This document shows positions 44,385-45,233 of a DNA stretch of 64,000 nucleotides, one piece after another (position 1 is the first letter of the stretch; each line of letters begins with the position of its first letter). The DNA comes from Tricholomella constricta (lineage: Eukaryota; Basidiomycota; Agaricomycetes; Agaricales; Lyophyllaceae), in the NCBI GenBank assembly GCA_013368375.1, contig JAACJP010000018.1, forward strand, positions 248,001-312,000. Reading direction: 5' to 3'. The notes under the pieces were generated by a model that was not told the origin of the DNA, did not search any database, and worked only from the letters and a program-made list of their open reading frames with translations. The position numbers and the translations under genes were made by a program.

Positions 44385-45233
44385 ATGCGCACTGATACTC
44401 TTGTATGCGTCCTCACCTCTGTCCTTGTCGCAGTAAGCGCTGCCCCTGTCGTAAGTAACCCATCTATCACCGTTCCTTGCTCGTCCATTTCTGACGACAC
44501 ATCTTTCTTCCTCAGGACATTGCCTCTAACGTACGCATTGCATTCCCTCTTACCACACCCATCGTTCTTCCTTACTCAAACTACCTTTTTCCAGGATGCT
44601 ACTGCTGCTGCTCCCCCCTGGAGGAGAGATAGCACTACTCCCGGAGCCCCTGGCTGGAAGCGTGATGACTCTACTATTAGCTCTTCGCTAGGTGCTCCAG
44701 GCTGGAAGCGCGATACTGCGTCTTCGGCAGGCGCCCCTGGCTGGAAGCGTCACGTCGACCTCTCCGACGGCGCTCCTGGCTGGAGGCGCGAGGCCGGCGC
44801 ACCTGGATGGAGGCGCGAGGCCGGCGCACCTGGATGGAGGCGTGAAGCCGGCGCTCCTGGCTGGAAGCGGGATACCGAGGGCGCTCCTGACTGGAGGCGC
44901 GACACTGAGGGCTCACCTGACTGGAGACGCGACGCCAACGCCATCTCCGGCGCACCTGGGTGGAAACGCGTAGAGGAGGACTCTACCGCTGCTCCCCCCT
45001 GGAAGCGCGTAGATGATGCAGTAGCAGCAGCCGCCGCCGCTCCACCGTGGAAGCGTTCAGACGATTCTACAGCCGCACCCCCCTGGAAACGGGAAGTCGA
45101 TTCAGAGGACGCTGCTGCACCCGGAGCCCCTGGGTGGCGCCGTACCGTGACGGAAGACTCCTCTATCCCAGCACCCCCCTGGAAGCGGGATCCAGAAGCG
45201 GAGACGGGAGCCGCTGCGGCGCCGCCCTGGTGA
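44385..45233 (+). CDS. Secreted Kex2-processed repeat-peptide precursor
   Basis: Exons 44385-44450, 44516-44530, 44595-45233 (introns 65 and 64 nt, GTAAGT...CTCAG and GTACGC...CCAG); 239 aa. Residues 1-19 are a signal peptide (MRTDTLVCVLTSVLVAVSA, then AP). The rest is 17 units of a core (A/S)P(G/P/D)W: ten APGW, five APPW, one each of APDW and SPDW... with counts by reading. Sixteen are followed directly by KR or RR, the Kex2 cleavage signal; the seventeenth is the C-terminus itself, ending APPW-stop. Spacers are short and acidic (RDTEGAPDW, REAGAPGW), and some start with EA or DA like the dipeptides trimmed by Ste13-type aminopeptidase. It therefore should yield many short Trp-ending peptides through the Golgi. 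Role unknown; no modifying-enzyme gene is visible nearby. Confidence 0.85.
   Translation: MRTDTLVCVLTSVLVAVSAAPVVSNPSITVPCSSISDDTSFFLRTLPLTYALHSLLPHPSFFLTQTTFFQDATAAAPPWRRDSTTPGAPGWKRDDSTISSSLGAPGWKRDTASSAGAPGWKRHVDLSDGAPGWRREAGAPGWRREAGAPGWRREAGAPGWKRDTEGAPDWRRDTEGSPDWRRDANAISGAPGWKRVEEDSTAAPPWKRVDDAVAAAAAAPPWKRSDDSTAAPPWKREVDSEDAAAPGAPGWRRTVTEDSSIPAPPWKRDPEAETGAAAAPPW

Follow-up and report, generated by a model that had tools for sequence, protein, structure and literature searches.

A gene for a probable secreted repeat precursor

We analyzed a window of 64,000 nucleotides from Tricholomella constricta (contig JAACJP010000018.1, positions 248,001 to 312,000), in which one gene, at window positions 44385-45233 (+), encodes 17 copies of the tetrapeptide [AS]P[GPD]W. 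Translation gives nine APGW, six APPW, one APDW and one SPDW core. Directly after 16 of the 17 cores stands KR or RR, core 17 forms the C-terminus at the stop codon, and each of the 16 dibasic sites is in turn preceded by P-x-W. This arrangement, already described in a sequence-only reading of the window, was borne out by a shuffle test: with residues 23-239 of the predicted spliced protein permuted 20,000 times, the motif P.W[KR]R occurred 0.03 times on average and at most twice, versus 16 times in the gene.

The same reading had taken 44385-45233 as a single open frame of 282 residues. The repeats in it are real, but the frame traverses two probable introns (129 nt together) that are stop-free by chance. 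Both predicted introns lie between codons, and the spliced coding sequence would measure 720 nt and encode 239 residues. This splice model, and with it the exons given here, is predicted from the sequence and from the matching layout of a paralogue elsewhere in the genome. The gene then consists of the following parts.

44385..44450 (+): exon 1, encoding the predicted signal peptide (approximately residues 1-19, 44385-44441; from hydropathy) and the first pro-region residues; 66 nt, also in the paralogue
44451..44515 (+): putative intron 1, 65 nt, GTAAGT...CTCAG, between codons; GT...AG ends, position after codon 22 as in the paralogue
44516..44530 (+): predicted exon 2, 15 nt (51 nt in the paralogue)
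44531..44594 (+): putative intron 2, 64 nt, GTACGC...TCCAG, between codons; GT...AG ends
44595..45233 (+): exon 3, with 17 P-x-W cores, 16 dibasic sites and the stop codon (from translation and from the pN/pS of the cores)
44610..45230 (+): repeat region, with C-terminal pentapeptides 9 GAPGW, 5 AAPPW, 1 PAPPW, 1 GAPDW and 1 GSPDW
44768..44902 (+): tandem array of 27-bp period, containing the three EAGAPGW units

Hydropathy (peak 2.92 over 10 residues) and the -3/-1 rule for signal-peptide cleavage sites predict a signal peptide of about 19 residues, cleaved between AVSA and AP. The spacers of the gene amount to 91 residues, 30 of them D or E and none K or R. Pfam gave no match above its curated cut-off for the window gene, the paralogue or five relatives.

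A paralogue with uniform spacers

The genome that we examined comprises 44.1 Mb in 118 contigs, the window lying on contig C18. The paralogue is found at C10:927937-927140 (-). Its predicted introns measure 56 and 55 nt, the first again after codon 22, and its exons 66, 51 and 570 nt, versus 66, 15 and 639 nt in the window gene. The predicted protein has 17 Trp-ending units as well, the final one ending in WR, and an XA dipeptide follows every one of its 16 W-dibasic sites (15 EA, 1 HA).

A protein search of the genome at E <= 0.001 found two loci of this precursor type. A DNA pattern for two adjacent W-dibasic units, blind to pairs with CGN after the Trp of the first unit, to KK pairs and to gaps outside 10-40 bases, matched 45 times: the paralogue on C10 accounted for 15 matches and the window gene for 14, and 16 were scattered singles, fewer than the 24 matches of the backward control pattern. 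Since clusters occur in two genes only and the singles stay below the control, we count two loci in the genome.

The two genes differ in what is kept between their units. Among the 16 dibasic units of the window gene, the ratio of nonsynonymous to synonymous differences (pN/pS) was 0.234 for the core codons and 0.849 for the four codons upstream; in the paralogue, the values were 0.135 and 0.216. Core codons are here those of A-P-x-W plus the dibasic pair, and the four upstream codons take in the initial G of GAPGW as well as, where units are shortest, an R of the preceding site; as units are not independent and multiple hits are uncorrected, the values describe a contrast, not a rate. At every core position except Trp, the window gene uses three to six different codons. 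Because of the pN/pS contrast, we read the window gene as one in which selection keeps the C-terminal end of the units and the spacers drift, and the paralogue as one in which the EAEA spacer is kept too.

Relatives in other fungi

Three protein searches, each scoring only the approximately 8000 candidates with the most shared words, returned 39 sequences, overlaps included, which together with the window gene and the paralogue make a set of 41. In 36 of them, three or more P-x-W units each precede a dibasic site or the protein end; W stands at the stop in 18, and 13 contain exact GAPGW in one of these two positions. Because the sequences were retrieved by similarity in these very motifs, the counts are partly circular and serve to characterize the family rather than to establish it. 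Of the 27 sequences with an organism name, 24 come from Termitomyces, Lyophyllum, Favolaschia, Volvariella, Leucocoprinus, Pleurotus and Mycena, all of which we take to be Agaricales genera, and the remainder from Rhizoctonia, Saccharomyces (alpha factor) and Zasmidium. The alpha-factor precursor of S. paradoxus was matched at E 4.9e-3, by our reading through the KREAEA motif of the paralogue. Judged from these sequences, the family is drawn mainly from Agaricales and is marked by the PxW end.

The set of 41 includes weak or EAEA-only matches (P0038-P0041), and its denominator retains two sequences that we rejected as members: P0014, with no signal-like start, and P0013, which looks like an unrelated precursor. 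The latter (source ENA) is a secreted-looking protein of 179 residues whose repeats (AAPGWKRG and AAGWKRG) do not resemble those of the fungal sequences; it is probably unrelated. Our alignment A1 comprises ten of the 13 proteins of the first search (P0007, P0013 and P0014 left out), the window gene and the paralogue.

Homologues without a signal peptide or without dibasic sites had been named beforehand as evidence that would speak against a secreted precursor. The dibasic sites are kept; a strong hydrophobic stretch in the first 40 residues, on the other hand, is missing (peak <2) from seven of the 41 sequences (P0014, P0017, P0020, P0029, P0037, P0039 and P0040). In P0029 and P0037 a strong hydrophobic stretch follows an internal MR-start, and both look like over-long gene models.

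Comparison of the first 40 residues in ten of the 41 sequences by local scores yields two groups. The window gene goes with Termitomyces P0002 (score 112) and P0004 (81), the paralogue with L. shimeji P0016 (146) and Termitomyces P0036 (100). Scores between the groups were 18-37, and the window gene scored up to 56 with more distant relatives (Volvariella P0006). Because Termitomyces sp. Mi166 carries counterparts of both genes, one each, the duplication probably predates the split of these fungi. The groupings would also place the fungus of the window near Lyophyllaceae, to which Termitomyces and Lyophyllum both belong.

Processing enzymes and predicted trimming

The genome contains candidate genes for the processing of such precursors. 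Two places on contig C12 match the P domain, and the one that was examined matches Kexin in PDB (E 1e-68) and carries both S8 and P domains. There are S10 carboxypeptidase genes, among which Kex1 is a candidate only, and contig C16 carries a gene for a DPPIV-type dipeptidyl peptidase, for which Ste13 and its vacuolar relative are indistinguishable here.

Our rule for trimming follows the specificity of dipeptidyl peptidase IV: XA or XP is cut off except where proline stands at residue 3. Applied to the 16 units of the paralogue past the first site, it predicts 11 GAPGW, 3 GPPGW, one GPPAPGW and one ASPAW; without the proline stop, 15 of these units would shrink to PGW. The only units of the window gene that the rule can reduce to GAPGW are the three EAGAPGW units of the 27-bp array. 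A shuffle test of XA/XP at unit starts covered 21 of the 41 sequences. In the paralogue XA/XP follows the dibasic site in 16 of 16 units and in Termitomyces P0036 it starts all seven units of at least 7 residues; in each case, none of 5000 shuffles had as many. P0036 mixes EP with EA, both Ste13-type, and its predicted products are GTPGW, GPPGW, GSPGW and longer forms.

Surroundings of the gene in the window

In a Pfam scan of ten open reading frames, the nearest recognized gene upstream was an HMG-box gene (PF00505), about 4 kb from the precursor. The window contains in addition three stretches that resemble long terminal repeat (LTR) retroelements and carry the domains of gag, protease, reverse transcriptase and integrase, joined by a chromodomain in the first and third only.

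38621..40351 (+): HMG-box gene
21272..26307 (+): LTR-retroelement-like, with chromodomain
52077..56494 (+): LTR-retroelement-like
57945..63316 (+): LTR-retroelement-like, with chromodomain
33538..34230 (+): start of the C-terminal domain of the lariat debranching enzyme DBR1
5824..6008 and 28044..28201: tandem repeats of 94-bp and 84-bp period, about two copies each

Discussion

The predicted signal peptide, the repeats and the enzyme genes together make a convincing case for the window gene as a member of the Kex2-processed repeat proteins (KEPs), an established class with 7878 members across 1345 strains (PMC7329392). Type #7 of Umemura, found in 49 genera (PMC7329392), may include the PxW family. 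In agaricomycetes, Vogt et al. 2022 (PMC9769878) used mass spectrometry to detect linear KEP peptides from Coprinopsis, Lentinula and Pleurotus, several with C-terminal Trp and with STE13 trimming likely; GPPAPSW and DDDPEGPPAPSW came from Coprinopsis cinerea medium and SGVAADW from Pleurotus. The precursors concerned, C. cinerea 447393 (GPPAPSW) and 490115 (QYKAPSW), Pleurotus 1091723/1439342 (SGVAADW) and Lentinula 2599 (SGTGEASAADW), resemble the window gene in signal peptide, dibasic sites and free C-terminal Trp, and several have STE13 motifs; the GPPAPGW predicted for our paralogue is one residue off the detected GPPAPSW. As far as published peptides rather than precursor sequences allow the comparison, our case differs in its 17 cores and in a paralogue pair with and without STE13 signature. 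STE13 signatures are also described in basidiomycete KEPs, for which a hormone role is suggested (PMC6339444). The earlier proposal of a secreted Kex2-type precursor whose mature peptides probably end in Trp is thus supported by the architecture, by the W at the end of 18 of the 41 sequences and by the published peptides with free Trp (PMC9769878). Its further statement that it could match the core to no described basidiomycete peptide holds for the exact letters, as far as a full-text search (supplements outside its scope) shows: judged by their titles, the papers in which GAPGW or PGWKR occurs do not treat KEPs, AAPPW was not found for a KEP either, and further searches yielded no paper on the PxW family by title; the kind of peptide, however, is already described (PMC9769878).

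Two other systems invite comparison. By its KREAEA units, the paralogue is similar to ascomycete alpha-pheromone precursors (MFalpha, STE13 type), from which our genes differ in the peptide itself, in the missing general STE13 signature of the window gene and in the presence of STE3-type receptor genes: 26 STE3 exon matches were found, 21 on contig C19 (at about 535-650 kb), a cluster that is likely the pheromone-receptor mating region, and five on C3. Molluscan APGWamide precursors have APGW before a dibasic site too. The Gly that serves as amide donor between Trp and the dibasic site is, however, present at none of the 16 sites of the window gene, which moreover is fungal, and we take the likeness as convergence.

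Our data suggest, at a level that we would call moderate confidence, a KEP that gives rise to linear, secreted peptides with free Trp, most likely used as an extracellular signal. After removal of the signal peptide, kexin would cut after each KR or RR, and a Kex1-type carboxypeptidase would strip the basic pair. The result would be at most 17 linear peptides, neutral to acidic, each with a free C-terminus and mostly of the form ...[GA]AP[GP]W. Their C-terminal tetra- or pentapeptide is the part under selection, and the acidic N-terminal extensions would mostly be dispensable spacers. From the paralogue, uniform short peptides with an identical GAPGW end would arise through stepwise removal of XA by a Ste13-type dipeptidyl peptidase, with the proline at position 3 (GA before P, or GP before P) halting the trimming at GAPGW or GPPGW. 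We conjecture that the products act as signals, received by conspecific hyphae or by other organisms and read mainly via the Pro-x-Trp-COOH end.

Several observations weigh against this interpretation or narrow it. The transcript and peptide products of the window gene are predictions from its sequence. Acidic EA and DTE spacers had been likened to Ste13-trimmed leaders, which fits the paralogue (16/16) but not the window gene: only five of its 16 units start with XA/XP, compared with a mean of 3.6 in within-spacer shuffles, and 28% of shuffles had as many. We therefore rejected Ste13 trimming as a general rule for the window gene. Since few of its units can be trimmed, its products should keep variable, mostly acidic N-terminal ends before a near-constant C-terminal end; untrimmed, the 16 units past the first dibasic site range from 7 to 15 residues, a spread that one would not normally expect of a fixed-length ligand. 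Even Lyophyllum P0016, by its N-terminus a near relative of the paralogue, has XA/XP in three of five units (42% of shuffles had as many), and only five of the 21 sequences in the shuffle test fell below 0.05 (the paralogue, P0036, P0037, P0005 and P0018), uncorrected for 21 tests. Ten Mycena relatives finish in extensions such as SRSA, not in W. No match to STE2 (PF02116) was found by the method that detected the STE3 exons, under which control genomes were equally silent. Finally, none of six kep knockouts in C. cinerea showed a visible phenotype (PMC9769878).

The alternative closest to our interpretation, and overlapping with it, is a peptide aimed at other organisms (bacteria, animals or competing fungi) rather than at the fungus itself, which from sequence alone is inseparable from self-signalling. 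Vogt et al. prefer biotic interaction, as the kep knockouts grow normally (PMC9769878), and we consider it possible, if the less probable option. The units are acidic and the spacers lack K and R, and therefore the peptides are not cationic antimicrobials; synthetic C. cinerea KEP peptides, too, were inactive against the bacteria tested (PMC9769878). A coat on the hyphae, made of surface peptides like the Rep1 repellents of Ustilago, would agree with the many copies, the Trp/Pro-rich end and the loose unit length. Rep1 peptides are longer, though, at 37 residues (PMC6339444), and the acidic extensions and an end kept letter-perfect over four to five residues would suit recognition better than coating, which makes a structural role improbable in our view.

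A product like the ribosomally synthesized and post-translationally modified peptides (RiPPs) had been named by the sequence-only reading as an option besides a peptide signal, together with a check for DUF3328 (UstY) genes beyond the window. Precursors of cyclic RiPPs of the dikaritin type (ustiloxin, asperipin), which involve UstYa oxidases, share with our gene the layout of signal peptide and Kex2 repeats, and the genome does contain 11 UstYa exon matches (E <= 0.01). All of these lie on C5, C20 and C65, however, and none on the precursor contigs C18 and C10; neither the spliced window protein of 239 residues nor the paralogue contains a single Tyr. The agaricomycete KEP peptides of Vogt et al. 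are linear and at most minimally modified (PMC9769878), and a DUF3328 gene lies near 6.1% of basidiomycete KEPs (PMC7329392). A cyclic product is thus unsupported, and we regard it as quite unlikely, although a modifying enzyme might be encoded away from the precursors. Least probable of all, to the point that we give it hardly any weight, is a decayed or non-functional slippage repeat: the gene does hold tandem arrays of 27- and 30-bp period, but the low core pN/pS, the varied codons at core positions other than Trp and the similar genes in Termitomyces speak against it.

What appears to be new is an old paralogue pair whose units retain a common Trp-ending terminus and whose predicted processing follows two designs. 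Tentatively, and with clearly more doubt than for the linear, secreted peptides themselves, GAPGW and its close forms GPPGW and AAPPW might be a conserved peptide hormone of mushroom-forming Agaricales, made from two old paralogous precursors, one giving uniform Ste13-trimmed pentapeptides stopped by proline 3 and the other giving peptides of identical C-terminus with variable acidic N-terminal ends, with a receptor that would differ from both Ste2 and Ste3, the receptor of prenyl pheromones. Basidiomycete alpha-factor-like precursors are without known function or receptor in the papers cited here, and no effect is reported for single knockouts (PMC9769878). The PxW family supplies GAPGW, a candidate ligand that is short and simple to make, along with a paralogue pair and a clear prediction of where trimming would stop, and therefore makes the question of function directly testable.
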